The position numbers and the translations under genes are program-made. The notes below the pieces were generated by a model. The model was given only the letters and a program-made list of their open reading frames with translations, did not search any database and was not told where the DNA came from. Shown one piece after another: positions 39,989 through 57,633 of a DNA stretch of 63,693 bases. The stretch comes from Candidatus Blautia stercorigallinarum. Lineage in GTDB: Bacteria > Bacillota > Clostridia > Lachnospirales > Lachnospiraceae. Within the stretch, counting starts at the first letter, position 1, and every line of letters starts with the position of its first letter. The stretch is taken from positions 1 to 63,693 of the forward strand of contig DXIQ01000106.1 in the NCBI GenBank assembly GCA_019112785.1, in the 5' to 3' direction.

Positions 39989-41007
39989 CACATTTTCTCC
40001 TTTAAGCTATCTGTACCACATTTTTCACAGAAATGGCATGCACACATATGCCCGTTTCCAATATCCTTTAATTCCGGTTTTTCCGTTTTGCAAATATCCT
40101 TAGCCATAAAGCAGCGGGTATGGAACACACAGCCTGACGGAGGATTTGCCGGACTTGGAAGATCTCCCTGGAGCAAGATCCTCTTACGCTTGCTGTGACG
40201 TTCCGGCAGAGGAATGGAATACAAAAGTGCCTGTGTATACGGGTGGGAAGGATTATCAAACAATTCTTTCTTATCCGCCATTTCTACTACATGGCCAAGA
40301 TACATAACCATTACTCTATCTGAAATATGCTTGATCACACTTAAGTTATGAGAAATAAAAATATATGCCATTCCCATGGACTCCTGAAGGTCTGTCAGAA
40401 GATTAAGTACCTGAGACTGTATAGATACGTCAAGCGCAGACACTGGTTCATCACAGACAATCAAAGATGGCCCCAGCACAATAGCTCTGGCTATGCCGAT
40501 CCTCTGGCGCTGGCCGCCGGAAAACTCATGGGGATACCGGTTATAATATTTCTGGTTTAATCCTACCACAGACATAGTTTTCAGAACATGCTCCCTGATC
40601 TCTTCTTTCGAAGAATACTTTTTCTGTATCTTCAGGGGCTCTGCAATAACTTCCCCCACAGTCATTCTGGGATTCAGAGAGGCATATGGATCCTGAAAAA
40701 TAATCTGCATATCAGATCTTATTTTTCTTAATTCGTTACCTGTGGTTTTCATGAAATCTTTTCCTTTGTAGATGATTTCACCCGAAGTAGGCTCGATCAG
40801 TCTTAACACAGATCTTCCCATGGTAGATTTTCCGCAGCCTGACTCTCCAACAACTCCCAGAGTTTCTTTCGGCATCAATGAAAATGACACATCATCAACC
40901 GCTTTGATCGATGACTTTTCCCTTGACAAAAAGCCTGATTTCACAGGAAACATTTTCTTCAAATGCTTTACTTCCAATAATGGCGTTTCTATCCTTTTTT
41001 CATTCAT
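39988..41007 (-). CDS. Oligopeptide ABC transporter ATPase (OppF/DppF-type)
   Basis: Cytoplasmic ATPase of the peptide importer, 339 residues. Walker [17 protein letters not shown]-loop IIFQDPYASLNPRM, signature EFSGGQRQRIGIA and Walker B LIVCDEPVSALD are all intact. The C-terminal oligopeptide-type extension (SPANPPSGCVFHTRC, C...C...C) holds the four-Cys region found in DppD/OppF proteins. The start overlaps the end of the OppD gene by 4 bases and the stop touches the epimerase start (TGATG). Confidence 0.95.
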   Translation of the reverse strand: MNEKRIETPLLEVKHLKKMFPVKSGFLSREKSSIKAVDDVSFSLMPKETLGVVGESGCGKSTMGRSVLRLIEPTSGEIIYKGKDFMKTTGNELRKIRSDMQIIFQDPYASLNPRMTVGEVIAEPLKIQKKYSSKEEIREHVLKTMSVVGLNQKYYNRYPHEFSGGQRQRIGIARAIVLGPSLIVCDEPVSALDVSIQSQVLNLLTDLQESMGMAYIFISHNLSVIKHISDRVMVMYLGHVVEMADKKELFDNPSHPYTQALLYSIPLPERHSKRKRILLQGDLPSPANPPSGCVFHTRCFMAKDICKTEKPELKDIGNGHMCACHFCEKCGTDSLKEKM

Positions 41008-41996
41008 TCAGCACTTTCCCCCCATTCTTGCGTATACTTAAAGCAGCGGACCATTCGACCTTCGGCTTCTGCAAGTTCCGGCATTTTCTGTCTGCATATT
41101 TCCCGTGCTTCCTTGCATCTCGGACAGAAAGCACATCCTTTCGGCATATCATCAAAGCTTGGGACCATACCTTCTATAACGCTTAACCGTTTTGTATCAT
41201 CATCATCCAGTTTTGGAATACACTGCATTAATCCATAAGTATAGGGATGCATTGGTTTCTCAAAAATCTGATCACAAGTAGCCCGTTCAACAATCTTTCC
41301 CGCATACATGACCATAACATCATCAGCAATTTCTGCAATAACACCAAGGTCATGAGTGATCATCATAACAGATGTGCCGGTTTTTTCCTTCAGTTCATTA
41401 ATCAGATCAAGGATCTGAGCCTGGATAGTCACATCCAAAGCTGTGGTAGGCTCATCACAGATCAGCAGATCCGGATTACAGCATAACGCCATAGCGATCA
41501 TAACCCTTTGACGCATACCTCCGGAAAGCTGATGGGGATATTCGTTAAAACGTTTTTCTGCCAGAGGTATTTTTACCATCTTCAGCATTTCAATGGCGCG
41601 TTCTTTCGCCTGTTTTTTTGTCATTTCTTCATGGAGCATCAAAGTTTCCACAAGCTGCTGTCCGATAGTAAACACAGGATTTAAGGATGTCATAGGTTCC
41701 TGGAAGATCATAGCGATTTTCTTTCCACGGATCTTACTCATCTCTTTTTCATTTTTCTTCAGCAGATCTTCGCCTTCAAAAATGATCTCGCCGCCGGCAA
41801 TCTCTCCGGGCGGAGTCTCTACCAGACCCATAATCGACAAAGAAGTAATACTCTTACCGCATCCTGATTCCCCTACAATCCCGAGGGTCTTACCTTTTTC
41901 CACAAAAAAGGACACATCATTCACTGCTTTGGAAAGTCCGGCATCTGTGTGGAAATATGTTTTTAAATGGTTCACTTCAAGAATTTTTTCTCCCAT
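41004..41996 (-). CDS. Oligopeptide ABC transporter ATPase (OppD/DppD-type)
   Basis: Second ATPase of the peptide importer, 330 residues. Walker [16 protein letters not shown]-loop [14 protein letters not shown], signature [15 protein letters not shown], Walker [15 protein letters not shown]. The Cys-containing C-terminal region [17 protein letters not shown] is typical of peptide/nickel ATPases. An AAGGAGG site precedes the ATG, which lies 14 bases after the stop of the OppC gene. Confidence 0.95.
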
Positions 41997-42010
41997 TATC
42001 TATGCCTCCT

Positions 42011-42928
42011 TTAGTTTTTAAGCTTTGGATCCAAAGCGTCTCTTAATCCGTCTCCAAAAATATTAAATGCGATAACTGTGATCATAATGGCAACACCGGG
42101 CATAATGCTGTATAACGGACGGTAATTGATAAATGTCTGAGCCGCGCTGATCATATTTCCCCATGACGGTGTGGGAGGCACAATACCGATACCCAGGAAG
42201 CTCAAAGATGCTTCATACATAATAGCATTTGGAATACCGAGAGTTACAAGGACAATGATTGTTGACAGACAGTTCGGGATCAACCCCTTCATTATGATCC
42301 AATATGTAGTCGCTCCGCTTGCCCGGCTGGCTTCAATATATTCCTTCTCTTTCAACTGCATAACGGATCCACGGATCATTCTGGCCGTCCTTACCCATGT
42401 CAGCAGTCCCAAAGCAATAAACAGATTAACTACACCTTTTCCCATAAATGTCATGATTGCCATAGCGAAGATCAGGTCTGGAAATGCCTGGAAGATTTCC
42501 ATGATCCTTGAAATCACGCTGTCGATTTTTCCTCCGTAATATCCTGCAATAGAACCAAGTGTTACGCCTACCAAAGACGCAACAATCTGAGCTACAATAC
42601 CGATACTGATGGATACCCTGGAACCATAAATAATACGTGATAAAATATCTCTTCCGTACTCATCTGTTCCAAAAGGGTGTGCCATACTCGGCTCTGCAAG
42701 AACTGCGGCATAATCCTGATATGTAGGATCATAAGGTGCGATCAGAGGTGCAAAAATTGCGATCAAAATCAGCACTATGATAACGCCTGCACAGAACATT
42801 GCAATTTTATTCTTCTTTAACTGTTTAAAGCTGTCTCCATAAAAACTGGAATACTGCATGTTATTTTCCAAAACTTCTTTTTCGAATTGTTTCTGCTTAT
42901 TAAAAAATCCAAAAATTTTCTTGCTCAT
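42011..42928 (-). CDS. Oligopeptide ABC transporter permease (OppC/DppC-type)
   Basis: Membrane permease of 305 residues. After an N-terminal cytoplasmic stretch comes the first helix (IAMFCAGVIIVLILIAIFAP) and the OppC_N signature LIAPYDPTYQDY. It continues with HPFGTDEYGRDILSRIIYGS and the EAA loop KEYIEASRASGATTYWIIMK. It pairs with OppB, whose gene overlaps it by 4 bases. About six helices in total. Confidence 0.95.
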   Translation of the reverse strand: MSKKIFGFFNKQKQFEKEVLENNMQYSSFYGDSFKQLKKNKIAMFCAGVIIVLILIAIFAPLIAPYDPTYQDYAAVLAEPSMAHPFGTDEYGRDILSRIIYGSRVSISIGIVAQIVASLVGVTLGSIAGYYGGKIDSVISRIMEIFQAFPDLIFAMAIMTFMGKGVVNLFIALGLLTWVRTARMIRGSVMQLKEKEYIEASRASGATTYWIIMKGLIPNCLSTIIVLVTLGIPNAIMYEASLSFLGIGIVPPTPSWGNMISAAQTFINYRPLYSIMPGVAIMITVIAFNIFGDGLRDALDPKLKN

Positions 42929-43857
42929 ACTACTCCTTTCCCATATCTGATCCTTGGATCCAGGAATGCATATGATAAATCCACGATTAAGTTTACAATA
43001 ACAAAGACAAATGCGATATACATAACTGTTCCTTCCAGCAGTGGGAGATCCCTGTTAGACATTGCGTCTACTGCCAGTTTACCAATTCCGGGAATTGAGA
43101 AGACTTTTTCAATAAGCATGGAACCAGTCAGCATGTAACCGAAATCTGTTCCGATCAAAGTAACGATAGGGATCAATGCATTTTTCAGGGCATGTTTTAA
43201 AATAACCGCCCATTTTCTCACGCCTTTTGCTCTCGCAGTACGGATATAATCCTGTCCCATGACTTCCAGCATACTTGTTCTTGTTATTCTCGCCATACTT
43301 CCCGCATATCTGGCGCCAAGAGCAATACTCGGAAGTACATAGGAAGCTACAGAATCAAAACCGGAAATAGGAAAAAGATTTAATTTCAGTCCAAAAATAA
43401 TCTGAAGAATGATCGCAACCCAGAATGCCGGCGCAGATACGCCGATAATAGACAAGATCATAACTACTGTATCGATTCCCTTACCTCTTTTCACAGCAGA
43501 GAAGATACCAGCCGGAATACCGATTACTGCTGAAAAAACAAAGGACATACAAGCCAGTTTAAATGTCACTTTAAAGCAGCGGAACAAAGCCTCAGATACA
43601 ACTTCATTTGTAAAATAGGATGTACCAAAATCCAGATGAATGGCACCTTTAATGAAATTAAAATACTGCACATAATATGGGAGATCCAATCCCAATTCAT
43701 GCCTTACTTTTGCGATTGTCTCAGGATCAGCCCTTTTTTCCAGCATGAGTGCTACCGGATCTCCGGGAACAATCTGCAGAAGGACAAAAGTGATCAGACT
43801 GATTCCAAAAAGAACAAAGACAGTCTGTGCTAATCGTTTAATAGTGTATGATAACAT
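42925..43857 (-). CDS. Oligopeptide ABC transporter permease (OppB/DppB-type)
   Basis: Membrane permease of 310 residues that begins like other OppB proteins (LSYTIKRLAQTVFVLFGISL, ITFVLLQIVPGDPVALML). Further motifs are FGLKLNLFPISGF, ARITRTSMLEVMGQDYIRTA (EAA loop) and SIPGIGKLAVDAMSNRDLPL. Six helices. AGGAGGG is close to the ATG. It follows the binding protein gene with a 131-base gap that holds a hairpin, and overlaps OppC by 4 bases. Confidence 0.95.
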   Translation of the reverse strand: MLSYTIKRLAQTVFVLFGISLITFVLLQIVPGDPVALMLEKRADPETIAKVRHELGLDLPYYVQYFNFIKGAIHLDFGTSYFTNEVVSEALFRCFKVTFKLACMSFVFSAVIGIPAGIFSAVKRGKGIDTVVMILSIIGVSAPAFWVAIILQIIFGLKLNLFPISGFDSVASYVLPSIALGARYAGSMARITRTSMLEVMGQDYIRTARAKGVRKWAVILKHALKNALIPIVTLIGTDFGYMLTGSMLIEKVFSIPGIGKLAVDAMSNRDLPLLEGTVMYIAFVFVIVNLIVDLSYAFLDPRIRYGKGVV

Positions 43858-43936
43858 TTTTTCCCTCCTGTCAATTTATTTTTCTTTTTAGCTTCCAGCG
43901 ACATCGCCGGTATAAAATGTAATAAGCGATTAAAGC

Positions 43937-43978
43937 GAAAAAAAGGGAAATCACACAATCAGGAGATTCCCCTTTTTC
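43937..43978 (-). terminator. Partial terminator between peptide-binding protein and permeases
   Basis: A hairpin GAAAAAAAGGGAAATC / GATTCCCCTTTTTC with a small bulge, 10 bases after the binding-protein stop. As the rest of the operon lies downstream on the same strand, it probably lowers read-through and raises the binding protein dose, as also seen at 12299. Confidence 0.72.
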
Positions 43979-43988
43979 AAACTTACAA

Positions 43989-45602
43989 TTACTGAATATC
44001 TGCATCCTTCCAGAACATACGGAATGTAGAATCAACCTCAAATCCAGTGATCTTCGGATTTAACAGATAGAATTTCGTTTCATTATATAACGGTGTTGTT
44101 GCCCAGTCTTCTCTAGTCATGATATGTTCAGCTTTGGCGTAGATTTCCTGGCGTTCATCAGTATCTGTTGTCGCAATTCCAGCTTCAAGCAACTGATCAA
44201 ATTCATCATTATGCCAGAAACTTGAGTTTGTATCTGTCTTTGTCATCGGGTACAGCATACTTTCAGGATCAGGATAATCTACATACCAGTTAGAAATACC
44301 GCAGTCTACACCGCCGGAAGCCTTCATGTCTGACCAGGCTGCTGAATCTACCTGTTCTACTTCTACATTGATTCCAGCTTCTTTTGCCTGTTCCTGGAAT
44401 GCCGTTGCAATCGCAACATTTCCGGCATATTTTGTATTTACTGTTACTCTAAGATCGATACCGTCTGGATAACCAGCTTCCGTAAGAAGTTCTTTTGCAC
44501 GTTCCGGATTATACTCGAATTCTGTAAGGGAATCGTCATGTCCGATAACACCTTCTGGAATATAAGATGTAGGAACGGTTGCTGTTCCGTGCAAAATACT
44601 GTCACAGATAGCAGCTCTGTCAATAGAAAGCGCAATCGCTTCTCTTACTTTAGGATCCGGATATGTATTGGCATTAACTGTAAGACTGTAGCATCCTATA
44701 GGCTGGAATCCATGCATCTGGTCTTTCAGTGTTTCATTGCTTGAGTAGATCGGGTAAACAGATGGATCTACATCTACATAATCTACATTTCCTGCCTGAT
44801 ATTCAAGAACCTGCGTATTGACATCCTCGATAAATTTGTAATCAACGCCGTCTAATTTAACAGGACCGTCATGATAATCCTCAAATCTTGATAAAGTCAC
44901 GCCTACACCTGACTGGTAACTGTCCATCTTGAAAGGACCTGTACCATATAAGGTTTTCATACCCCAGTCATTTCCAGCTTCTTCACACGCCTGTTCCGGA
45001 TAGATTGCTGTATATGCAGTAGAAAGAACTGATAAGAACGGCGCATATGCTTTCTTTAATGTAATTGTAAAATGAGTATCGTCCTGAATCTGGAAACCAG
45101 ATAACTCATCTGCAGTTCCTGCACTTAATTCATCATATCCCTGCACATTTTCCAGAAGTGTTGCCATCTTTGCCATCTTGATCAGGCGCTCATAAGAATA
45201 TTTCACATCTGAAGCTTTCATGACCTCTCCGTTGTGAAATTTAACATCCGGAAGAAGTTCAAAGCTGTATGTCATCTGATCTTCAGAAATTTCAGGCAGC
45301 TTAGCTAACAGAACCGGTTCAAGGCTTCCATCAGCATTGCTTTTTAACAAAGACTCGGTAACGTTGTCGGTAATCTTCATAACAATACTATATGTATACT
45401 GCTGAGGATCCAGGGCAACCTGCGGGTCCACCGCTGCCACCCGGACAACTTTATCTCCGGCCGAAGCAGTATTTTCTGTCTGTGCCTGTTCTGAGGCGCT
45501 GTTGTTTTCAGTTGTTGTTCCAGATGTATTTGAGCCGCCACACGCCGACAGAAACATTGCGGCTGCACAAAGTAAAGCAACACCTGTCCATTTTCTTTTC
45601 AT
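43989..45602 (-). CDS. Oligopeptide-binding lipoprotein (SBP_bac_5; DppE/OppA-type)
   Basis: Extracellular peptide-binding lipoprotein of 537 residues. The signal peptide ends in the lipobox LSAC followed by a Ser/Thr/Asn/Glu-rich linker. The mature protein has the family 5 pattern (LDPQQYTYSIVMKITDNVTE, VKFHNGEVMKASDVKYSYER, GTGPFKMDSY, SIDRAAICDSILHGTAT). AAAGGAG stands 8 bases before the ATG. It is the first gene of the peptide-import operon. The epimerase and hydrolase at the end of the operon suggest that its ligands include murein-derived peptides; sequence alone does not prove it. Confidence 0.94.
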   Translation of the reverse strand: MKRKWTGVALLCAAAMFLSACGGSNTSGTTTENNSASEQAQTENTASAGDKVVRVAAVDPQVALDPQQYTYSIVMKITDNVTESLLKSNADGSLEPVLLAKLPEISEDQMTYSFELLPDVKFHNGEVMKASDVKYSYERLIKMAKMATLLENVQGYDELSAGTADELSGFQIQDDTHFTITLKKAYAPFLSVLSTAYTAIYPEQACEEAGNDWGMKTLYGTGPFKMDSYQSGVGVTLSRFEDYHDGPVKLDGVDYKFIEDVNTQVLEYQAGNVDYVDVDPSVYPIYSSNETLKDQMHGFQPIGCYSLTVNANTYPDPKVREAIALSIDRAAICDSILHGTATVPTSYIPEGVIGHDDSLTEFEYNPERAKELLTEAGYPDGIDLRVTVNTKYAGNVAIATAFQEQAKEAGINVEVEQVDSAAWSDMKASGGVDCGISNWYVDYPDPESMLYPMTKTDTNSSFWHNDEFDQLLEAGIATTDTDERQEIYAKAEHIMTREDWATTPLYNETKFYLLNPKITGFEVDSTFRMFWKDADIQ

Positions 45603-45774
45603 CCTCCATTACTCCTTTACTTAAAAATTATATTTAACCCTTTTAAGAGCAAATACCAATATATTGCTATAAAATTTTATCGCTACACTTTATTAAAGCA
45701 TTTTTTCTACAAAAAACCTTTGCACCTTTGATACAAAAAGTACATTCTTACTCTAAGGAATCAATTATTCAGCT

Positions 45775-45803
45775 AGTATACTATGCTAATCTTTACTTGT
45801 CAA
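45775..45803 (-). promoter_or_regulatory. Promoter of the peptide ABC operon
   Basis: A perfect TTGACA, a 17-base spacer and TATACT on the minus strand. It lies about 170 bases before the binding-protein start, giving a long, AT-rich 5' leader with no clear riboswitch fold. Confidence 0.85.
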
Positions 45804-45863
45804 GATTGATTTTATTAAAATCCGACATAAAAATCCCAAAATTTACATCCTAATTTTTCTGCT

Positions 45864-48800
45864 TCACTTTTCTGTTTTTTCTTTCCTTTCTTTCCTTTTT
45901 ATTCCCAAAGCGGCTCCTCCGGCCGCTGCTATAAAGGCAGCAACAGTTCCCCAGAAAAAAGGTTTATTCATATAATATTGAACTGCAATATTTGGGGTCA
46001 CCAATACGCTTAAGGCAACCGGCCTTCCTCTCCCTTTCACCTGCATTTGTCCAAGTATATTATCTGCAGCATCTGAGGCAGTTACTTCTATTTTCTGAAA
46101 GTGATAAGCAGAAGGAATTTTCACCTGTATAATCCCATTTTTCTCTTTAAGTTCTTCTGCTTTATATATCTCGTTCTTTCCATTTATAGATACAATCACT
46201 TCGTTCAATGCCAGATTATCCTTGGCGTCTATAGTCATCAGCTGTTCCGTGCTTCTGTATGTGCCTCCATCCTTTACTCCGGTAACAACTGCCGTAGGTG
46301 CTGTTTTATCTACTGCAAATTCTATGGGAAGATTCTGATCACTCTTCTTAACGCTCCTATTATTCATAACATTGCCGGCTTTATCCTGAGTACTGAAGAT
46401 TACAGAATATTTTCCTTCTGTTGCAAAATTTGGGGCATCTAGAATATAATGATTTTCCTTCCACTGTGCTTCTGTTCCGGAACTGGTCACCTTGTAATCT
46501 GTCTTTTCTTTCAGGTTTGTCATTTCTCCATCCCGGTTTACTGTGATCTGCCTGTTTTCGATGCTGTCTACATTGTATTCGATCACGCCCACTTCTTTCT
46601 CTTCATTAATGTAGGTATAATCCTTTATATCAAGCCAGTCTTTTGTGTCATTATCCAGTACGTATACAGATCCATAACGGTTTACAGAAAAGCGAATGGA
46701 TTCTTCTTTCTCGTTTCCTGCCATATCTACCGCCTTAGCAGTAAGGGTATACAGGTCGTCCATCTTCTCCTGCCTTGCAAAATCATTAAACTTCATGGTC
46801 TGGCCATTTTCGATAGCGGATACCACATTTCCAATATTTACTTTTCCATTATTAGCGCCTGTAATAGTTACCGTTACATTCTTAGCGTCATAGTTTACGT
46901 CTGTAGCTTTTACCCTTGGAGATACCACATCATTATTCGCAGATTTGTCTGCTACATCGGTGATCTCGATTTCCGGTTCTGTAAGGTCTACTGTAAAATC
47001 GTCCGGCGTATACTCAGCCGCTGCATTTCCGGCCATATCTGTGTATTCCACATCAAAGGTATAGTCACCGTCTATTCCATATGTCACAGTCGCCGTATGG
47101 ACGTCGCCGTTTCCGGAGAATCCGCTGATGGACGGAGCGGAAATGCCTCTCCCTTCCAGGCTGGCTGTGATCGCTGCTTTTACGTCTGCGGCATTGAAGT
47201 TGTGCTCCCGTACAGTTACAGTGGCTATACGAGCTTCGTTGTAATAATTTCCATTTCTTGCACTGTTATTATCATAGGAAACAGAAATCTCCGGTACGGT
47301 CTTATCAATGGTAAACTCATCGGTCTGTCCGTATTCTGTGCTGTTGCCTGCAAGGTCTGTGCAGCCCAGTGTAAAGGTATAATCACCTTCTGCCGGGAAG
47401 GCTACCTGGCAGGTACTTGTAGCGCTGTCGGATACTCCAATATCAGAGCTGCTGCTCCATCCGCCGATGCTGGCTTCTGTTCCGTCTGTATTGGTAATAC
47501 TGAACCTTACATTATTCGGATCAAAGTTCCTGTCTGTTACAGTGACCGTGGCTGTTCGGGTATCCTTGTAAAAGCTTCCGTTCAGCGGATTATTCAGATC
47601 CCAGGAAACAGAAATTGTGGGATTGGTCACATCAATCTTCATTTCTGTAACCTCACTCTCGCCCTGGTTTCCGGAAAAATCTACCGCAAAGGCCTGAACC
47701 TTCACATCATTACTGTTATATACATTTGCCGGCACTGTAACTACCTGACTGAATGTCTGATTGCTCTGTACCCGGTTGCTGCTGTTCAACAGTTCAATGG
47801 TTTCGCTGGTATTTACATTTCCAGAAGCGGAAACGGTATACCATACACGTTCCAGTCCGGAATATGTATCCCCTGCGTAAGGATCTTCCACATCAATCTG
47901 AAGAGTAACGTCTTCGTTGAAGATTCCGTTCTGAGACTGGCTCAGGTTGGTAATGGTAACTACCGGGGCAGGTTTGGTGCTGTCCACGATCATACCGTCG
48001 GAGCTGAAATAGGATACGTTATTTGCATAATCTGTAACCTTCATGTAAACAACAAACTGCTCATCTGGATTTACTGTAAATGCACCATGAGCTTTGTATC
48101 CGTCTTCAGAAGGATCCATATAGCTGGTATTGCTCCAGTCATAGTTTTCCAGCTGTTCCAGACTCATAGGATCCGGCGTTCTGAAATACTGCACCGCATA
48201 AAGTGGAGATGTATAATCCTCCGCATTCATCTCTACATCTACGGAACCTGGGTTAAACAGTCCAAAAGTAATATTATGTAAGAATGTCTCCCAGAAACCA
48301 AAGCCATTAATGGAAACAGAACCTGTAGCCTGAGTCCAGTCAATGGTAAAGAGCGCGTCTGTATTGGAAATCTCATTTCCATTAGAGTCTACATAGATGG
48401 CCGGTTTACCTGCTAAATCTTTGTATTCAAAGAAATGTCTGTATGCGCCCTGTGCTTCAAAGGTAAATGTGTATTTCCACTGTTCGGTAATACCATTCAC
48501 GCCGTTTTCTGCCCACTGAGAACTATCCTGCATCAGATCATCCGGATTCCATGCTCCATCTGTATTTCTACTAATCTCAGTCTGTGAAACAGCGCCAAAG
48601 TCTAGTCCTTCACCTGCAAAATTATGTTCATCAACATAAGTAGTGTAGTATACCGGAGACTGTACATAATAAGGTTCTCCCGGCTGCAGGGAAATTTCTG
48701 TTCCTCCTGCGGTATATATCTGTTTGATCACAGGACTGGTTTTATCAATCGTAAATACATGATTTGCCGCCTCTGTTACGTCCGTGGAATAAGAAACATT

Positions 48801-51800
48801 ATCGTTTCCATTGCCTAATCCATCTACACAGGAAAAATTAACTTCGTATCTATCCTCGCCATTGAAGACAAAGACAATGTCCATCTGCTGGACCCCATCA
48901 CCTAAATCCTTCATTTCCGTAGAAATGCTGCTGAATACATTCTGAGGTTTCGGTGTTACGTCTGTTAATTCTCTCAGCTGTTCAATGGACGCAGAATCCA
49001 GGGTATAAGTCTCGTTCAGTTTCTTATCTGTAAGAGTCAAGTTGAAATAAATCTGTCCCGGAACAATATTTCTATCTTTAATGGATAAAACAGCCTTTCT
49101 GTTTCCATTAAAGTATGTACCGTTCTGTACAGAAGTATTCGGTTCATTGGTATACTGAACATTAACTTCAGGGCTGGTTAAATCGATAGTTAACTGCTGA
49201 ACTGCAGAAACAGTCTTTCCTGAATTATCTGTTGCCATAACTTTCAGATATACATCATTGTGATCTGCCAGTATTTTTTCTTTGTCCCCTAAGTTCTTAA
49301 TATCTAATACGCCTTTAAATGCGATTTTCAAAGGCTCGCCATTTTTATCCCGCAGTCTTTCATAGCTGTATTGGGTATCATTTTCTGTAGAATAAACCAT
49401 AGCTTCACTGATTTTATTTTCTTCAGTTCCCTGATAAATTACATATTGAATATTGTTTATACCAGAGCTTACATATTCTGTCTCTTTAACATCATAGTCT
49501 GTCACGGTAATATCATCTATTTCAATAGCCTTTTCTAAATACTCCTGATTATATCTATAATCAAGATCAGCGGGAAATTGAATAGATGGCTCTTTATTCT
49601 CAATAACAATACCGTTTGACGCATAGATCAGAGTATTTCCCAGGTTATCATACGTTCTGACTGCTGCAACATAATATCCTTCTATTGTCTCCTCATTCTC
49701 GCCTTTCCCAACAGGAATCGGTACGCCTTCCGTGCCGCTGTCCCAGTCCTCTTCACTTAATCCGTTTAAGACAGTGCAAAGTTCTTCTTTTGAAATATCA
49801 TCAGTTACGTCCAGAACAACCTGATCAAAGTTTCTTTTTCCTGAACCATTATCACGAACTGTTACCGGCACTGAAAATAACGTATTCTTATAGTTGCCAA
49901 AGCTAATTGCACTGATGATACTGTCCAGCGGAGTATTTTCTCCGACCAGATCTTCAAATGTTACAGACGGTGCTTTCGTATCTATATATACCGTTTGTGT
50001 ATAAGGCTTTGAGCAAAGGACAGTATCTTTATAAAGCTCAAATATAATTTTTTGTCCTACAGAGTCAATCTTTTCTGAAGTATTAAAGGAAATTTTTCTA
50101 TTATCCCCTATTTTCTTATCATATTCAGATTCCATGCTCTCTTCGCTATCTAATGGTGACACAGCAGTAATTTTTATAGCATCGAATAAGGAATTGTCAG
50201 AATTAATTTTTACCCATATTCCATATGCTGTACTATCTCCTGCAAGATTTCCTCTTACCCAGAGATTACTATTTTCCTGGTCTGTAAAAATATCACCCTC
50301 ATAAGATACAAAATCATGGATATTGTTTTTTGTTAACGTTCTTTCTGTAATAGTAAGGTCTCCGAATAAAGGATTCCCCTGATCATCTGTGTCTATTTTG
50401 TAACAGTAATTTTTATTTGCGCTGTTTACTACACTGTCCGTCCCTTCAATAATCTGACCGTTTTCGGAGTTTTCATCTAATATAGATGGTTTTAGAGCAT
50501 ATGCATATGCAGCTTCCTGTACCAAAGCCTCCGGTTTTGTATCAATAACTGTAATGTTATCCTCTACTTTATCCCCATCTACAATACCCGATTTGTCATC
50601 TTTATCGTAGGCCTTCAGTTCTACATTTTTCTGATCTTCCGGAAGGTCTGTACCATATTCTCTTGTTCCATCTGAGACTTCCAGATAAATCGGACGGCGT
50701 TTGATTTCACAGGTAAAACCCTTCTCGCCAATCTCTTCGCCTTTAACAATCAGATAATTGTCATTCATAGCGTCATTTACTAAAGAAATCGTACCTGTCT
50801 GTTCTTCATCCCACTGGATTTCATCCTGCCATGGTAGGTATGATATTCCCTCTTTTACATTATCTTTATCATCTCTAGTAGCAGTAGCTAACTGAAATGT
50901 CTGTCCATTTATGTCTGCTACAATCTCACTTTTATCGCCTTCTACAATATCCTCTTCATCGAATGTAACTGATTGGATTCCTACATTAGTTGTACCATCA
51001 TAGATTTTGTTCTCAAATGTAATGTCCGTCACATGCAAGGGTTTCTGGTTGATTGAAAAAGTTGTGCTATTCGTTGCATCTCCATAGACTTGTTGATTTT
51101 TATCATCTGTATGGCTGTATGTAAGTGTTAAATTAAGATTGTTTCCTGCTTTAGAAGGTTTTAAATTAATATATCCGCTTACGTTGAATAACCCGTTCTC
51201 GTTCTTTTTGATACTATCTGGATTGATTGTGACAGTATACCCCTCAATCGCATCGGAGGTTACTGTCCATCCCTTGCGTAAATCAGTACTGTTTACATCA
51301 GCGACAGTTGCTGTAAACTCAATCTTCGTTGTATCCCCTTCATTATCCCCATATGTACCAATAGGCTCTTCCGGTTGATCAATAGACTCAATTTTCTGGC
51401 TCTCTAGTGGAACTACGTTAGCCACCGTTATTGATGTTTCACATCTTTCTGCATATTTTCCATCTTCTTCTAAAGCACAATAAATTGTATAGTTTCCTGC
51501 GTATGGAAACGTAAATGATGTCGTTGCTTTCCCACCTGAAAGCGAAACATCTTGGGGTTCAGTCGGATGTTCAGTCCCATCCGGATAAAACACTCTAAAA
51601 GATACAATTTTATTAGCATCATTTATAGAAATATTGTTTGAGAAAAACTCGGCTTCAATCGTAATCTGATCATGTACTTGGTAACTTTCCGATTGATCTA
51701 CTATTTGAATTGATCCGGTAATATTTCCATATTTCTCTACCGTTACTTCTATTTCAATGTTCTGACCATGAGCTGAAATCATTAACGAGGTTTCGCCTGC

Positions 51801-52928
51801 ATTTATTCCATTCAATGTTATTTGTCCATCACTATAGACAGCCGTTACAATATTCGAGTCTTCTGACGTAACCTCTACCCTCCATCCTTCAGGGCAATTT
51901 ACACCTATATTTTTCACATCTCCGACTTTTAAAGTTATGGTTTCTTCTGCAGAAATTCCCTCCAGAGAAATCGATTCAGATGTTTCTAAACTTATATTTC
52001 CCAAATCAAAATCTTTCTCTAAATCAACAAATTGATTCTCGATTTCTTTTGTCTTATATTTTCCTTCTTTTGAAATTACAATCTTATAACTTGTTCCTTT
52101 TCCCCCTCGAACATTATCTAAGGAAAAACTTCCATCTTTTTCTGTGAATACAGAGCCTACGGTTGTTCCTTCACTGTCGCCTTCCACAGAAATCAAATCC
52201 ACATTTGCATCGGCAATAGGTTCACTTTCAAAAATGTCCACCACTTTCCCCTTTATACTATACATAGGGCGTACTTGAACATTGTTGATAGTCACACTAC
52301 TACTTTTTTCTATATCATAACTTTTCCATGTAGCAACAATAGTGACTTCTCCTGCTGTATGGATAGTTAATATTCCTGTCGTAGGATTGATAGATGCATT
52401 TTGTGTTGTACAAGACCACTCAATATTAGGATTTTCTATGATGATACCTGTTGTAGTTTCTCGCACCGTTGCTGTAAACGGTGTTTCGCAGGTTTCCCCT
52501 ATATAAAATGGGCCATCAGGAGCTGTTATCGTTACTTCATACTCCTTTTCCAAAGGCGGCTGCTCTTCTCCTCCTTCACTCGGTTCAGTAGGTTCTTCTC
52601 CAGGTTCTGTAGTTCCGTCTGGCTCTTCTCCACCTTCATCAGTTTCAGTCCCGTCTTCGCTTCCATCTCCTGCATCAAGTTCTGTAACTGCATTCTCATC
52701 ACCAGCCTCGTTAAATGTACTGCTTTCATCTGATGCTTCCAGAGATGCTTCCGCTGGCACAGATTCTTCTGTAGTCACAGGTTCTTCTGTCACGATTTCT
52801 TCCTGCACTGGCTCCCCATCTACTGCTGCCGCCTGCAGCTGTACAGGTTCCATGACCATTCCCACTACCATGGCAAAGGTCAGCATGAAAGCCAGTATCC
52901 GTTCTTTACATGTTCGCTTTCCTTTCAT
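45864..52928 (-). CDS. Giant secreted multi-domain surface protein (2354 residues)
   Basis: Large exported protein, probably rod-like and cell-attached. Residues 1-36: signal peptide (FMLTFAMVVGMVM...AAA). ~37-115: acidic Glu/Pro/Thr-rich stretch. ~118-205: Ig-like Big domain (ASINPTTGILTIHTAGEVTI). ~210-300: carboxypeptidase-regulatory-like domain (YSIKGKVVDIFESEPIADAN). ~310-620: further Ig-like units. ~640-800: YDG-type repeat (KPLHVTDITFENKIYDGTTN). ~980-2250: many Ig-like modules, several with D(M/L)AGN and TVTV(T/R)(D/E)(R/H)NF motifs. ~2325-2345: membrane helix followed by a Lys/Arg tail (KRKERKEKTEK). No LPxTG motif is present. The start overlaps the four-span membrane gene by 23 bases, and the operon begins with a kinase and phosphatase. 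Confidence 0.9.
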   Translation of the reverse strand: MKGKRTCKERILAFMLTFAMVVGMVMEPVQLQAAAVDGEPVQEEIVTEEPVTTEESVPAEASLEASDESSTFNEAGDENAVTELDAGDGSEDGTETDEGGEEPDGTTEPGEEPTEPSEGGEEQPPLEKEYEVTITAPDGPFYIGETCETPFTATVRETTTGIIIENPNIEWSCTTQNASINPTTGILTIHTAGEVTIVATWKSYDIEKSSSVTINNVQVRPMYSIKGKVVDIFESEPIADANVDLISVEGDSEGTTVGSVFTEKDGSFSLDNVRGGKGTSYKIVISKEGKYKTKEIENQFVDLEKDFDLGNISLETSESISLEGISAEETITLKVGDVKNIGVNCPEGWRVEVTSEDSNIVTAVYSDGQITLNGINAGETSLMISAHGQNIEIEVTVEKYGNITGSIQIVDQSESYQVHDQITIEAEFFSNNISINDANKIVSFRVFYPDGTEHPTEPQDVSLSGGKATTSFTFPYAGNYTIYCALEEDGKYAERCETSITVANVVPLESQKIESIDQPEEPIGTYGDNEGDTTKIEFTATVADVNSTDLRKGWTVTSDAIEGYTVTINPDSIKKNENGLFNVSGYINLKPSKAGNNLNLTLTYSHTDDKNQQVYGDATNSTTFSINQKPLHVTDITFENKIYDGTTNVGIQSVTFDEEDIVEGDKSEIVADINGQTFQLATATRDDKDNVKEGISYLPWQDEIQWDEEQTGTISLVNDAMNDNYLIVKGEEIGEKGFTCEIKRRPIYLEVSDGTREYGTDLPEDQKNVELKAYDKDDKSGIVDGDKVEDNITVIDTKPEALVQEAAYAYALKPSILDENSENGQIIEGTDSVVNSANKNYCYKIDTDDQGNPLFGDLTITERTLTKNNIHDFVSYEGDIFTDQENSNLWVRGNLAGDSTAYGIWVKINSDNSLFDAIKITAVSPLDSEESMESEYDKKIGDNRKISFNTSEKIDSVGQKIIFELYKDTVLCSKPYTQTVYIDTKAPSVTFEDLVGENTPLDSIISAISFGNYKNTLFSVPVTVRDNGSGKRNFDQVVLDVTDDISKEELCTVLNGLSEEDWDSGTEGVPIPVGKGENEETIEGYYVAAVRTYDNLGNTLIYASNGIVIENKEPSIQFPADLDYRYNQEYLEKAIEIDDITVTDYDVKETEYVSSGINNIQYVIYQGTEENKISEAMVYSTENDTQYSYERLRDKNGEPLKIAFKGVLDIKNLGDKEKILADHNDVYLKVMATDNSGKTVSAVQQLTIDLTSPEVNVQYTNEPNTSVQNGTYFNGNRKAVLSIKDRNIVPGQIYFNLTLTDKKLNETYTLDSASIEQLRELTDVTPKPQNVFSSISTEMKDLGDGVQQMDIVFVFNGEDRYEVNFSCVDGLGNGNDNVSYSTDVTEAANHVFTIDKTSPVIKQIYTAGGTEISLQPGEPYYVQSPVYYTTYVDEHNFAGEGLDFGAVSQTEISRNTDGAWNPDDLMQDSSQWAENGVNGITEQWKYTFTFEAQGAYRHFFEYKDLAGKPAIYVDSNGNEISNTDALFTIDWTQATGSVSINGFGFWETFLHNITFGLFNPGSVDVEMNAEDYTSPLYAVQYFRTPDPMSLEQLENYDWSNTSYMDPSEDGYKAHGAFTVNPDEQFVVYMKVTDYANNVSYFSSDGMIVDSTKPAPVVTITNLSQSQNGIFNEDVTLQIDVEDPYAGDTYSGLERVWYTVSASGNVNTSETIELLNSSNRVQSNQTFSQVVTVPANVYNSNDVKVQAFAVDFSGNQGESEVTEMKIDVTNPTISVSWDLNNPLNGSFYKDTRTATVTVTDRNFDPNNVRFSITNTDGTEASIGGWSSSSDIGVSDSATSTCQVAFPAEGDYTFTLGCTDLAGNSTEYGQTDEFTIDKTVPEISVSYDNNSARNGNYYNEARIATVTVREHNFNAADVKAAITASLEGRGISAPSISGFSGNGDVHTATVTYGIDGDYTFDVEYTDMAGNAAAEYTPDDFTVDLTEPEIEITDVADKSANNDVVSPRVKATDVNYDAKNVTVTITGANNGKVNIGNVVSAIENGQTMKFNDFARQEKMDDLYTLTAKAVDMAGNEKEESIRFSVNRYGSVYVLDNDTKDWLDIKDYTYINEEKEVGVIEYNVDSIENRQITVNRDGEMTNLKEKTDYKVTSSGTEAQWKENHYILDAPNFATEGKYSVIFSTQDKAGNVMNNRSVKKSDQNLPIEFAVDKTAPTAVVTGVKDGGTYRSTEQLMTIDAKDNLALNEVIVSINGKNEIYKAEELKEKNGIIQVKIPSAYHFQKIEVTASDAADNILGQMQVKGRGRPVALSVLVTPNIAVQYYMNKPFFWGTVAAFIAAAGGAALGIKRKERKEKTEK

Positions 52929-53400
52929 TCTCCTTAACTCCTTTTTTCCTTTTTACTTGTGCTAAATATTGGAATACCTTTCCTGTTACCAGGAAGTGTA
53001 AATAAAAGCATGTGATTGTTATAAACAAGGATAAGAAATCCAAAATCCGGTTAGCGCCTATTGTCATATTGCAATAGACGGCTCCGATTAGGCCTATAAG
53101 GAATAAAATGTCAATTCCTATAGCCACCGGGTTTTCCCATACTCTCAGGCAGGAAGGAATCCTGCTCTGTGGAAGTCTTTTTGCCAATGTCTCCTTATAT
53201 TTCCGATACATCAAAAAATAACTGACGCAGCCGGATAGGATTCCTGCCCAGAATAAAATCCCTGCCAGAGTTCCTATTCCTTTCTTTATTCCCGTCTCCC
53301 CTCTGCCGTATAAAGGCAGTAAAAACAGCGCAATGGAAATCAGGAAAAAGCACCCGACTGTGATCAGGAATCTTTTCTCTAAGTCCTGCAAGTTCTTCAT
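52906..53400 (-). CDS. Four-span membrane protein of the kinase / surface-protein operon
   Basis: A 164-residue membrane protein with four hydrophobic segments (around residues 11-30, 41-64, 92-110, 120-142). The first loop faces outside and has the sequence PLYGRGETGIKKGIG. The loop between helices 2 and 3 is basic (MYRKYKETLAKRLPQSRI) and the tail is basic (QVKRKKGVKENERKANM), which places both ends inside. I do not recognise the family. It starts 3 bases after the single-span protein gene and overlaps the giant surface protein gene by 23 bases, so the three are very likely made together; a role in anchoring or exporting the giant protein is inference. Confidence 0.82.
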   Translation of the reverse strand: MKNLQDLEKRFLITVGCFFLISIALFLLPLYGRGETGIKKGIGTLAGILFWAGILSGCVSYFLMYRKYKETLAKRLPQSRIPSCLRVWENPVAIGIDILFLIGLIGAVYCNMTIGANRILDFLSLFITITCFYLHFLVTGKVFQYLAQVKRKKGVKENERKANM

Positions 53401-53403
53401 CTG

Positions 53404-53940
53404 TCACACCACCTCGTCTGTATGTATCAGCATTGTGTATTTTTCAATCCGGAACATTCCATAGCTCTGGTCTGTTTCCTTCTGTATCTGTTCCAAAGTA
53501 GGAACTAAGTCTTCCGAGCTTAATACCTGTGTCTCCATACTGCTAGTGTTTTTCTGTTCTGTCTGCAAAGCTTCTGTAGGCCTGGAGGGGGGCTGGATCA
53601 GCTCGTTCATGTCTGCCTTCCGAACTTTTCCAAGTCTCTTGCTTGGGCTGAGACTTCCGGACTTTCCAAGTCCGCCGGTTCTTCCAATTCCCCCTGACCT
53701 TGCCAGCGTACCTGTATACCCTCTTCCTGCCGGTCTTCTCAGTGAACTGGTACGAGCATTTTTTTCTTCCATGCTCTGTACAGTTTTTCTCACAGAACGG
53801 CCGGTCTTGGCGTTGAATATATTCCGTATATCAAATTTAAAGAAAAAGGTCACACTTAATATGAGAAAAACAATGCACAATCCCAGACACACATAAAACA
53901 AGGTGTGAAACATATTAATCTGCTGCTGTATCCGCTGCAT
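53404..53940 (-). CDS. Single-span basic protein, possible kinase substrate
   Basis: A 178-residue protein with one membrane helix (about 12-33, YVCLGLCIVFLILSVTFFF) and a cytoplasmic C-terminal part. Residues ~70-105 are very basic and Gly/Ser/Thr-rich, with short repeats (ARSGGIGRTGGLGKSGSL). A Glu/Gln-rich section follows with SSMETQVLSSEDL, a Thr context like those phosphorylated by Hanks-type kinases and read by FHA domains. The end (GMFRIEKYTMLIHTDEVV) is beta-rich. The gene overlaps the kinase gene by 26 bases. I do not recognise the family. That it is a substrate of the adjacent kinase is a hypothesis from context and motif. Confidence 0.8.
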   Translation of the reverse strand: MQRIQQQINMFHTLFYVCLGLCIVFLILSVTFFFKFDIRNIFNAKTGRSVRKTVQSMEEKNARTSSLRRPAGRGYTGTLARSGGIGRTGGLGKSGSLSPSKRLGKVRKADMNELIQPPSRPTEALQTEQKNTSSMETQVLSSEDLVPTLEQIQKETDQSYGMFRIEKYTMLIHTDEVV

Positions 53941-55735
53941 CCTGCTCCCCTCCCTGTATATCTATCGCCAGATTCTCTCTGTTAAAAGTAGAATGCACAA
54001 TGTTCCTGGCAAAGCCCAGACTCTCGATCAGATTGTACTTCAGCTCCTGTTCATATTCCGCATTGGCCGAGCCGGTAACGATTTTCATGTTGCCCACAGC
54101 CTCCACAGCATGATCCAGTTCATTTTCCATCTGCTGCCGGGTAATTCCTGCACTCTTAAAGTTAGCGGCATTATCAGCGATCTGAAATGTCATTTCTTTA
54201 TATGCCAGAAGTATGTTTACATTATTTCCACTCGCCGAATCATCTTCTACTGTTTTCTGCAGGTCTCTCCAGTAATCCGCATAGGATACCCTAGAGTCTC
54301 CTGCCTGATTCCGCATTCCCAGGCTGTCATAGTATTCCGAAATCTTATAAAGATTTGCCGCACGATTGATATTTGCCTCATTAAGTTTCTCTGTAATCTC
54401 TGCCTCTGAGGCAATCTCCAGCCATTTTCTGGCTGCGCCTTTATTTCCGGTTCCGTTATAGGAAAAGTAATAGGCAATTCCCAGGTCATAGGCAAATTTA
54501 TCATAATCCTCTACATTTGCTTTCAGATATTCCTCATTCCTTCGATTCTTGTTTTCCTCTGTTCCCAGCACTTTTCGTATCTCCTGTTCCTCTGCATCTG
54601 AAAATACACAGGTAATCTGCTGGCTGGCCGCTTCATTTCCGGTATCTCCCTGAGCACTGTCATTATGTTCCCACAGAAAGAAATTCAACAGCTTCTCATA
54701 AGCTAAACCGTCGGAAGGATTTAAGGCAATGGCATTTTTATAATACTGAATGCACTGTTCTGGATCTGTGGACGCAAGATTGTCCGCTTCTTCCACATAT
54801 GTCTCATAGGTACTTGCCGTCACTGTATTTTCTGCAATTTTAAACCCCGTCGCTCCTGCGCCGGCCACAACAGTCAGCGCTGCGCTGCACAGAAAGGCCC
54901 TCCATTTTAAAGTCTGTTTCCTTTTATATTCGATATCCAGTTCATTATAATGTTCCAGTGCATACAAAAGCCCGCCGCAATTCTGATAGCGGTCATCCGG
55001 ATTTTTCTGGGTACATTTCAGAATGATCTCCTCCAGGCCGGAGGAAAGTTCCGGATTCCAATACCGGATCGGATACATCTCATAAGGCGGCTCACTGGGA
55101 TTATGTCCGGTGAGAAGATGGTAAAGAGTTGCTCCCAGGCAATAAATGTCGGTTCTGGCGTCGGTCTGTCCATGGCCTCCATACTGCTCCGGCGCTGCGT
55201 ATCCCTGGGTTCCCAGACATGTGGTATCCGCCACACTGTTTTCCTTAAATTCTCTGGCCGTACCAAAATCAATAAGCATAACCTTTCCATCCGGTTTTAA
55301 CATGACATTGGACGGCTTCATATCCCGGTAGATAATCGGCGGCTTTCTGGAATGAAGGTAAGAAAGCACATCACAGAGCTGTTTTGCCCATTCGATCACA
55401 TCTTCCTGGCTTTGAGCTCCATATTCTTTCGCAACGCTTTCCAGATGGCGCCCTTCTATGTAATCCATGACAATAAGAAAGGTTCCGTCTCCATCGATCA
55501 CATCGATAATACTGGGCAGATTGGGATGGCTCAGCTTTTTCAGCATTTCGGTCTCTGCAATCAGTCCCTGCTTTACCACCTCAAAGTTCTGTACACCATC
55601 TTTACGTACCTCCTTGATGGCCCACTGCTTATTTGCCCTTTCATTCATAGCCAGGTAAACAACACTCATTCCTCCCTGGCCGATCTTATTTAAAATTTTA
55701 TATTTTCCATCCACTAAAGAACCAATTTCAAGCAT
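53915..55735 (-). CDS. Hanks-type serine/threonine protein kinase with TPR-like tail
   Basis: Membrane-anchored Ser/Thr kinase of 606 residues. The kinase domain (about 11-262) is complete: Gly loop GQGGMSVVYLA, K41 in WAIKEV, catalytic D138 in IIYRDMKPSN, DFG D156 in LIDFGTARE, and the activation segment GTQGYAAPEQYGG. One membrane helix follows (~280-299). The C-terminal ~300 residues, expected outside, look like alpha-helical TPR/SEL-type repeats (QCIQYYKNAIALNPSDGLAY; AARKWLEIASEAEI). No PASTA domains occur, unlike PknB/PrkC. The gene starts 11 bases after the phosphatase gene and overlaps the next gene by 26 bases. It probably phosphorylates partners encoded in the same operon. Confidence 0.93.
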   Translation of the reverse strand: MLEIGSLVDGKYKILNKIGQGGMSVVYLAMNERANKQWAIKEVRKDGVQNFEVVKQGLIAETEMLKKLSHPNLPSIIDVIDGDGTFLIVMDYIEGRHLESVAKEYGAQSQEDVIEWAKQLCDVLSYLHSRKPPIIYRDMKPSNVMLKPDGKVMLIDFGTAREFKENSVADTTCLGTQGYAAPEQYGGHGQTDARTDIYCLGATLYHLLTGHNPSEPPYEMYPIRYWNPELSSGLEEIILKCTQKNPDDRYQNCGGLLYALEHYNELDIEYKRKQTLKWRAFLCSAALTVVAGAGATGFKIAENTVTASTYETYVEEADNLASTDPEQCIQYYKNAIALNPSDGLAYEKLLNFFLWEHNDSAQGDTGNEAASQQITCVFSDAEEQEIRKVLGTEENKNRRNEEYLKANVEDYDKFAYDLGIAYYFSYNGTGNKGAARKWLEIASEAEITEKLNEANINRAANLYKISEYYDSLGMRNQAGDSRVSYADYWRDLQKTVEDDSASGNNVNILLAYKEMTFQIADNAANFKSAGITRQQMENELDHAVEAVGNMKIVTGSANAEYEQELKYNLIESLGFARNIVHSTFNRENLAIDIQGGEQDAADTAAD

Positions 55736-55746
55736 ATGTCTTCCCC

Positions 55747-56514
55747 CTAGTATGCCCGGATCAAAGCAACTGAAATATTGTCTTCTTCTCGTCTTGACTT
55801 ATTAAGCTCTGTGAAATATACAGCTGCTTCTTTCATTTTTTCTTCCGTCGCCATAAGCTCAGGTTTCAATCTATCATAAAACTCCTGAGGCTGTATTACA
55901 TGGCGGAACCCGTCGGAGCACATCATGAACACGGAATCAGGCTGGTATTCGCCTACATAGAAATCCGGTTCGATCACACTGCTGGCGCCTACGCACTGAA
56001 GCAGCATATTTCTCTTCGGGTGTATCTTCGCCTCCTCAAGAGTCATTCTTCCCAAATCCATTTCCCTTTGTACAAAAGTCTGATCTGCGGTCATCTGGTT
56101 TATTCCTTCTTTCAGGTAATAAACTCTGGAATCTCCCACATTGATGATATAATAAACATTCTCTACCAGCAGCAAAGCCACTGCAGTAGTTCCAAGACTG
56201 GCATTACAGCTCAGCCCATATTCACTAATTTTCTGATTTTGTTCTAAGATTAAATCTGTCCAACTCTGTCTCACAACATTTGCTTCAATCCCGCTGTATA
56301 AGATCCGGGGAAACTCCCTGTGAAACCAGTCGGAAAAAGCCTTAACTAAAATGGCGCTGGCAACCTCGCCTTTTTCAAGGCCGCCCATACCATCACAGAT
56401 AACTCCTAACAGTACCTGCCCATAATCTGTAGCCGCTGTTTCCAACAATATAGAATCCTGATTTGTTTTTTTTCTAATTCCTACATCTGTGAGGACTGCT
56501 GTTAAAAAATTCAT
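55747..56514 (-). CDS. PP2C-type protein phosphatase (Stp-like)
   Basis: Cytoplasmic Mn/Mg-dependent Ser/Thr phosphatase of 255 residues, expected to reverse the adjacent kinase. PP2C motifs are present in order: TDVGIRKKTNQDS, CDGMGGLEKGEVAS, SLGTTAVALLL, INVGDSRVYYL, MCSDGFRHV and EEDNISVALI, with the metal-binding Asp residues kept. It is the first gene of the five-gene unit; the kinase gene starts 11 bases later. This phosphatase-kinase order is common, but the downstream genes differ from the usual ribosome-biogenesis neighbours of PrpC/PrkC. Confidence 0.93.
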   Translation of the reverse strand: MNFLTAVLTDVGIRKKTNQDSILLETAATDYGQVLLGVICDGMGGLEKGEVASAILVKAFSDWFHREFPRILYSGIEANVVRQSWTDLILEQNQKISEYGLSCNASLGTTAVALLLVENVYYIINVGDSRVYYLKEGINQMTADQTFVQREMDLGRMTLEEAKIHPKRNMLLQCVGASSVIEPDFYVGEYQPDSVFMMCSDGFRHVIQPQEFYDRLKPELMATEEKMKEAAVYFTELNKSRREEDNISVALIRAY

Positions 56515-57087
56515 TTTTATACACTCTCATTCATTAATTTGTACGGAACCCAGCCTTGCTCCCTGTCCATTCAGACATTTACAAACCTTAACTATATCTG
56601 AATTTTAGATGAACACTCATTCAATGAAAAAATCAAATCTATTTTTTGCACCGATTTATGAGCTATATAGTATATTTATAGAAGCAAATCTGTACTTTTT
56701 TATGTTTCAATAATTCAAAAAGGGGATTCATGTCATTGATAAGAAAATATAGAATTGTTTAAGAATATCTATTTCATAAAATTTTATAATTGGGGAATAC
56801 TGGCTGATCTGCCTTCGAAATGTATCTTTACCATATCATAAACTTGCTTGTTTCTCAATTAGCAAAAATGCTGAATTCTATTTCCGGATCATTCCCTCCA
56901 ATATGCCTAAAAACAGAAAGATATCAGAGGGAATAATTCAGATATTTTTTCTATAGGATTCTAATTTCGTGAATCTCTCTCCCTGGTTCAAGCTCCCAAA
57001 ACAGCAATCAATTTCCTGTTGCTCCCCCTTCTCTATTAATGTATATAAACATACAAAATCCTTCTGGTTTCTTTTCTTAAATAACCA
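56515..57087. other. AT-rich intergenic region, 573 bases
   Basis: No confident gene is seen. It contains the likely promoter zone of the phosphatase-kinase operon (AT-rich, no single good -35/-10 pair), a loose hairpin ATTCCCTC...GAGGGAAT at about 56890-56935, and an in-frame 49-codon open extension after the acetyltransferase stop (56938-57087). Confidence 0.6.
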
Positions 57088-57633
57088 TTAATCATTCAGC
57101 GCACAACTCATCTCATACCAGGGCACGCCTCCCCAGGTGGACTTAGACAGTCCATGACTGGTGAATCCCATTTTTTCATACATAGGAATTTTATCAGCCA
57201 GACAGGTGAGGACTGCCATCTTCCTTCCCCGTTCTTTTTCCCTTTGAAGGTAGATATGCATCAGTTCTCTTGCCAGACCCTGGCCCCTGTATTCCGGAAG
57301 GACATCCAGTCCCAACAGTATCACATTTTTTCCCTCAGGCTGGTACAACGTATTGTCATAAAAAAATTCATCCCGGAAACTGACTTCATCGGTTGCCAGG
57401 CCGCATAGAAATCCCGCAAGTAATCCGTTCTTTCTGTCAACCGCCGTCAGGAACATCTCTGGAGCCGCAGCCGCCCGGTCTTTCATCATTTTCTCCGTGC
57501 ATGCTTCGTTGGGTGGAAAGCAGACCTGTTCGATCCGTGCTGCCTGGTCTCCTTCCTCCGAGCGGATATACCGGAACTCAAAACGCTCATACAGACTCTC
57601 TGCCGCCTGTTGGCATCCTTTTATATCACTCAT
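57088..57633 (-). CDS. GNAT family N-acetyltransferase
   Basis: A 181-residue acetyl-CoA-dependent acetyltransferase. The acetyl-CoA binding loop is visible as VLPEYRGQGLARELMHIYLQ (Q/RxxGxG/A). It is preceded by the strand VILLGLDV and followed by the beta-alpha unit MAVLTCLADKIPMYEKMGFT. The start is the ATG 10 bases after AGGAGG, giving MSDIKGCQQAAE; the frame extends 7 codons further upstream without a site. Substrate is unknown. Confidence 0.88.
   Translation of the reverse strand: MSDIKGCQQAAESLYERFEFRYIRSEEGDQAARIEQVCFPPNEACTEKMMKDRAAAAPEMFLTAVDRKNGLLAGFLCGLATDEVSFRDEFFYDNTLYQPEGKNVILLGLDVLPEYRGQGLARELMHIYLQREKERGRKMAVLTCLADKIPMYEKMGFTSHGLSKSTWGGVPWYEMSCALND

Follow-up and report, generated by a model that had tools for sequence, protein, structure and literature searches.

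The closest described relatives of the locus analysed here are T7SSe and T7SSd. The definition of T7SSe as a secretion system came from gene neighbourhoods; it comprises TseD, TseF, TseH and TseI together with TseA and TseA2 (WXG100 proteins), TseB (YukD-like), TseC (an EssC-type ATPase with an N-terminal FHA domain), TseJ and TseK (a second single-span protein) (Garrett, Higginson and Palmer 2024, PMC11217815). The same paper suggests regulation by phosphorylation. In the literature that we searched, with partial coverage, T7SSe occurs as a whole word only in this paper, and among the matches listed for T7SSd, TsdI, TseI and T7SSj, it is the only one that concerns these systems. In the T6SS, a threonine phosphorylation pathway is formed by PpkA, Fha and TssL, and the phosphorylation of TssL at Thr 14 was demonstrated by experiment (PMC3953482). 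The bifidobacterial PFNA operon consists of pkb2, fn3, aaa-atp, duf58 and tgm, and its abstract proposes a role in sensing host signals (PMC8430577).

A putative T7SSe-type module in a Blautia genome

We analysed a stretch of 63,693 nucleotides from Candidatus Blautia stercorigallinarum (the window), which carries an operon with the following features.

55747..56514, minus strand: PP2C/PPM phosphatase, TseF-like, 255 aa (Pfam PP2C_2, 5.1e-11)
53915..55735, minus strand: Hanks-type Ser/Thr kinase, TseD-like, 606 aa, with one span and a TPR-like ectodomain (Pkinase, 1.5e-48)
53404..53940, minus strand: single-span protein, TseH- or TseK-like, 178 aa, with a basic cytoplasmic tail of low conservation
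53521..53535, minus strand: E-T-Q-V-L in the TseH tail, predicted phosphothreonine and FHA-docking site at T137 (motif conservation)
52906..53400, minus strand: four-span membrane protein, 164 aa, accessory (alignment of 23 sequences with 5 invariant residues)
45864..52928, minus strand: giant Ig-like surface protein, TseI-like, 2354 aa (Big_3_3 above cut-off)

The five genes on one strand, their sizes, the gaps of 11 and 3 bases and the overlaps of 26 and 23 bases are exactly as the preliminary description had claimed. By architecture and gene order, the operon genes match TseF, TseD, TseH and TseI of T7SSe as their putative counterparts, and the parts and their order make the operon a predicted T7SSe-type module. 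Between the kinase and the giant there is one gene for a single-span protein, which could be TseH or TseK; we call it TseH below.

The phosphatase and the kinase were recognised by both Pfam and NCBIfam, and PP2C adjoins the kinase in 72 of the 78 loci for which 900 bp or more of upstream sequence is available. The kinase keeps its catalytic motifs, as judged by eye. The profile of its ectodomain matches TPR structures, and the predicted structure of this part is helical (mean pLDDT 87). We rejected a PASTA kinase operon of the PrkC/Stp type because PASTA repeats were not found in the operon's kinase, which reached 210.8 bits with the PASTA-kinase model (cut-off 450) and in the kinase part only. 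The PASTA kinase of the genome is encoded at another locus (C39), with three PASTA stretches and a PP2C neighbour. PADLOC models, applied to the five proteins to compare them with anti-phage kinase systems, gave many kinase-domain matches, one PP2C match and no match for the remaining three proteins. Several relatives carry a second kinase 3' of the giant, one of which (L096:796-2691) has clear TPR repeats. At another locus (L055:2230-12119), a kinase-TseH pair is followed by FHA, DnaJ-like, vWA and kinase genes, next by a protein matching Hcp/TssD (PF17642, 7.5e-7), whose neighbour is similar by eye and has no Pfam match, and then by two FHA genes and PP2C; EssC was not found in this genome.

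The 178-residue protein had no match in Pfam or NCBIfam, and the 164-residue protein none above cut-off in either. A homologue of the former follows the kinase in 76 of 80 kinase loci. The four-span family is less constant, its model matching 26 of the 80. The preliminary description had proposed comparing gene order around these two membrane proteins, and homologues of both proved to be linked to kinase and giant genes elsewhere. The 164-residue protein is present in six genomes, its own included, among 200 sampled genomes of the family. PP2C, kinase, 178-residue and 164-residue genes follow in identical order in all five others; the start of the giant is visible in four of them, and the contig of the fifth ends.

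Promoter-like and terminator-like sites at 45500-57200 did not rise above shuffled sequence. The stretch between the giant and its neighbouring gene contains one promoter-like site with 11 of 12 matches (45803-45775), a hint that a separate unit lies downstream of the giant. Peptide-type ABC transporter genes, identified by eye, lie downstream of the giant at positions 37488-45602 of the window and separate it from genes that are the immediate neighbours of the giant in a relative (G028). This block beside the operon appears to be an insertion or a rearrangement.

The giant protein combines a conserved stalk with a variable tip

One Ig-like domain of the giant lies above the Pfam/NCBIfam cut-off, and by eye the protein has an N-terminal Sec-type signal and a C-terminal membrane span; an LPXTG-like site was not found in its last 120 residues. 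A giant lies within 3.2 kb of the kinase in 50 of the 64 loci with at least 5 kb downstream. When the window giant was compared with 62 giant-like ORFs of more than 1000 aa, residues 1701-2300 were matched on average by 56-61 of them; for residues 201-500 there was no matching ORF, and elsewhere in residues 1-600 the number never exceeded two. A 777-aa fragment at L017, which falls outside this set by its length, gave a 52% match to the first 803 residues of the window giant, and the giant of G397 (L102) matches only at residues 968-2348 and in the signal region. Conservation near the membrane together with a variable distal part matches what would be expected of an anchored stalk whose tip can be exchanged. 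In one Blautia bin (L016:6571-7839), the frame of TseH stays open into the start of the giant, forming a 423-aa ORF at the contig end, which is presumably either a TseH-giant fusion or an assembly artefact.

The module recurs in genomes where EssC and WXG100 were not found

In the source genome, the best EssC match (2.0e-19, all four candidates scored) is at the level of FtsK/SpoIIIE, and no EssC match was obtained at 1e-30 when the best 2 of 16 candidates of this 91%-complete genome were scored. WXG100 gave no match at 0.01, with 19 of 19 candidates scored, and none at 1e-5. We extended the search to an even sample of 397 genomes of the family, in which the kinase ectodomain was matched in 98 genomes at 1e-10 and in 56 at 1e-40; the count of 56 kinase genomes depends on the chosen cut-off of 1e-40. 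For EssC, the two best candidates per genome were scored, and we removed eight matches that were weak or fragmentary, all of which lay outside the kinase genomes. EssC was present in 30 of the 56 kinase genomes compared with 63 of the 341 others (odds ratio 5.1, p 1e-7, kinship ignored) and was not found in the remaining 26, which we call orphans. WXG100 at 1e-5 was found in none of these 26, and it was found in 23 of the EssC-positive kinase genomes searched (24 of 30). What is new in this analysis is that the orphan module recurs. No orphan T7SSe module is described in the literature that we searched, which had partial coverage, and the word "orphan" is absent from the main text of PMC11217815. 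Because kinase, phosphatase, TseH and giant occur without motor or WXG100 in 26 of 56 genomes, these genes need not be only secretion parts, and the return of the same stripped-down operon in related bacteria suggests a job of its own.

Could the operon serve a complete T7SS that was missed because the source assembly, with a completeness of 91.45% and 111 contigs, is incomplete? We consider this very improbable. Two 100%-complete genomes of the same genus contain the kinase, and EssC and WXG100 were not found in either; moreover, among the 26 orphan genomes, 22 reach a completeness of 90% or more, and one, G315, consists of a single contig.

The locus sample, which shares genomes with the 397-genome sample (for example, L019 is G028 and L020 is G090) so that the counts were not added, gave EssC in 39 of the genomes that contain 50 of the 80 named loci. 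Among its five genomes named Blautia, EssC was present in L018 and not found in the other four. EssC was also not found in Faecalimonas umbilicata DSM 103426, and the locus of Blautia sp. An81 (L019) has the four-gene version of the operon. Where EssC and the kinase occur together, they lie within 25 kb on one contig in 13 of 30 genomes. At L043, an EssC-type ATPase, a giant, an FHA-protease, PP2C, kinase, TseH, two WXG100-like genes and a YukD-like gene follow on one strand, the WXG100-like (21.7 and 19.4 bits) and YukD-like (25.6 bits) proteins being below the Pfam cut-offs; at L075, one WXG100 protein passes the cut-off (34.8 bits). In G148, the genes after the giant are a second kinase, an FHA gene, an FHA-bearing EssC and WXG100 genes above cut-off, and the place of YukD is taken by a gene of 91 aa without a Pfam match. 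The EssC of EssC-positive genomes may be of another subtype.

We read 20 orphan loci from 19 genomes, G315 being read twice. The giant is kept in 17; two of the three loci without it are short contigs, and L118 has none. PP2C was labelled beside the kinase in 15 of the 20, the TseH model matched in 16, an upstream FHA gene was labelled in only 7, and the four-span gene is present in one. An alternative explanation is that a stand-alone operon for surface sensing or adhesion, similar to PFNA, joined the T7SS later in some lineages, by recruitment and not by loss. The orphan operons are compact and their inspected neighbours differ, as such an origin would allow, and a variable tip on a conserved stalk fits it as well. 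On a tree of 74 kinases, the EssC label required 15 changes, at least 11 of them forced by starred branches, compared with 24 in shuffles. This was a quick tree with SH-aLRT support only; it has a single very long branch, L120, and four of its orphan rows come from genomes less than 90% complete. Its counts cannot say whether EssC was gained or lost. The clustering of the label on this tree argues against recruitment, and the upstream FHA gene that remains in some orphan loci can be read as marking stages of loss. We regard recruitment as rather doubtful.

The operon genes look to be under purifying selection

Another explanation is that the operon is a decaying remnant, left over after the loss of a T7SS and without a selected function. 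EssC, WXG100 and a locus FHA gene were not found in the source genome, in each of five genera (g3, g14, g67, g90 and g102) one sampled species has EssC and another has the kinase without it, and the orphan locus L118 has lost the giant, all of which would fit such decay. Against it, all five reading frames are open. Among Blautia, in a comparison that includes the EssC-positive L018, dN/dS was 0.03-0.21 for PP2C, 0.10-0.19 for the kinase, 0.12-0.36 for TseH, 0.12 for the four-span protein and 0.18-0.30 for the aligned parts of the giant, with dS near saturation. Three neighbouring control genes gave 0.03-0.15, which TseH and the giant exceed. The operon genes look to be under purifying selection, and the values of 0.03-0.36 across the five genes count against a leftover. 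The giant is also retained in most of the orphan loci read, and flanking genes are common to the window and its relatives (L016 and L017 on the upstream side, L019/L101 and L102 on the downstream side). A decaying remnant is therefore improbable in our view. The window PP2C is 98% identical to that of L018, whereas the window kinase is 79-82% identical to the kinase of L018 and 86% to those of L016 and L102; this discrepancy points to recombination.

A conserved threonine in the TseH tail resembles sites beside FHA domains

FHA domains bind phosphothreonine, with a preference at the +3 position. The span of TseH and the disorder of its tail were judged by eye. In an alignment of six TseH sequences, the tail is poorly conserved except for the invariant T137 and L140 (+3), and M-E-T-Q-x-L is kept in five aligned Blautia sequences while the rest of the tail changes. 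Counting over ORFs of up to 400 aa at 75 of the 80 loci, we found T-x-[VILM]-L in 63 of 75 tails (shuffle mean 12.1 loci, maximum 21), with 192 sites in total (shuffle mean 13.3, maximum 28). The motif is absent from 12 tails, and L036 has neither the TseH motif nor an FHA gene beside PP2C.

A site of the form T-x-[VIL]-L is also found in the linker beside the FHA domain in all 51 FHA-proteases (proteins of more than 400 aa, 49 of them distinct and three the seeds of the model), with 100 sites compared with 4.4 in shuffles. As a control, PP2C proteins had 38 motif sites versus 23 in shuffles, within the shuffle range, and the kinases had 98 versus 45, about twofold and above the range. Since G-x-S-G-G was seen in only 39 of the 51 FHA-proteases, not all of them need be active. 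The same kind of site lies N-terminal to the FHA domain in 9 of 13 FHA proteins inspected. An FHA protein encoded upstream of PP2C at L011:15754-17001 has seven E-T-T-[VI]-[LM] sites before its FHA domain. In the sole FHA protein found in the source genome, a DUF6382-FHA protein (L014:9348-10709), T-A-V-L and E-T-E-L precede the FHA domain. This protein, encoded at C11, has hydrophobic spans by eye, and its gene lies beside T2SSE and T2SSF genes in a Tad-like setting; the operon locus itself has no FHA gene in the source genome. No FHA protein was matched anywhere in the genome that contains L017, a poor fit to the idea that an FHA reader is required.

From motif conservation, we infer that TseH would be phosphorylated on threonine and bound by an FHA domain at the predicted site, and there is good reason to propose a threonine-phosphorylation switch that would act on a membrane complex. 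The preliminary description had proposed that reversible phosphorylation of membrane partners controls the giant. Its first half is supported indirectly, by the conserved T-x-hydrophobic-L site of the 178-residue family, which matches the site seen beside FHA domains in partner proteins. In its second half, phosphorylation would control the export or anchoring of the giant, a protein that by eye has a Sec-type signal of its own.

A proposed phosphothreonine-FHA switch

The reading that we hold to be somewhat more probable than all others together is that the operon represents the membrane and phosphorylation components of a T7SSe-type system, kept where EssC and WXG100 were not found, and that it would act as a phosphothreonine-FHA switch on an anchored stalk that exchanges its tip. 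The TPR-like ectodomain of TseD would sense the state of the envelope or the base of TseI. TseD would then phosphorylate the tail of TseH at the threonine within E-T-x-hydrophobic-L, and TseF would remove the phosphate, as the conserved site and the pairing of the genes suggest. Phospho-TseH would recruit an FHA reader, which in many relatives could be the membrane-anchored trypsin-like FHA protein and in T7SS-positive genomes possibly the FHA-bearing EssC. As the locus in the source genome has no FHA gene and the only FHA protein found there is the Tad-like DUF6382-FHA protein, either that protein or another reader is the candidate partner. Recruitment of the reader would switch a complex in the membrane to which TseI is anchored. 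TseI would be an Ig stalk exported by Sec, with a tip that differs between lineages, and the operon may serve in surface recognition or adhesion.

It is possible, and we hold this only tentatively, that TseF-TseD-TseH-TseI is an independent envelope system, in which a phosphothreonine switch would control a giant surface stalk that swaps its tip, and that it works with or without a T7SS motor; type VII secretion would use the kinase-TseH-stalk unit in some lineages. Orphans may then share a phospho-code (E-T-x-hydrophobic-L) with the FHA protein of the Tad pilus, and, if this were true, one kinase network would coordinate pilus and stalk.

Comparison with known systems

The operon resembles T7SSe in its membrane kinase with a helical ectodomain (TseD), its PPM phosphatase (TseF), its single-span protein with a short unstructured cytoplasmic tail (TseH, with TseK equally possible) and its giant, Ig-like protein with a Sec signal and a C-terminal span (TseI) (PMC11217815). 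It differs in the extra four-span protein. It is not a complete T7SSe, because EssC/TseC and WXG100 (TseA and TseA2) were not found in the source genome and TseJ, a cytoplasmic DUF6382-FHA protein, is not encoded at the operon locus (PMC11217815). Many relatives also have an upstream trypsin-like FHA protein, and the word "trypsin" is absent from the main text of PMC11217815.

EssB/YukC of T7SSb likewise has a cytoplasmic kinase-fold domain, one span and an outer domain (PMC11217815); unlike it, the operon kinase keeps its catalytic motifs. The ectodomain structure matches listed (the best 50 of 981 chains in one search and the best 60 of 69 in another) are TPR-type domains, with EssB not among them, and YukC gave no match above cut-off in seven genomes. 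The PFNA operon shares a Ser/Thr kinase gene beside a surface-protein gene, in its case with fibronectin-type domains (PMC8430577). The operon described here is without AAA-ATPase, DUF58 and transglutaminase genes, and a TseH-like tail is not mentioned in the abstract on PFNA (PMC8430577).

The T6SS threonine phosphorylation pathway belongs to an unrelated, Gram-negative machinery, and the proposed likeness would lie in a kinase, a phosphothreonine in a membrane component, an FHA reader and an assembly switch (PMC3953482). Since T-x-hydrophobic-L is common to TseH, the FHA-proteases and other FHA proteins, it offers a concrete single-residue prediction for the read-out of phosphorylation, and the regulation by phosphorylation suggested for T7SSe (PMC11217815) becomes testable at the peptide level.
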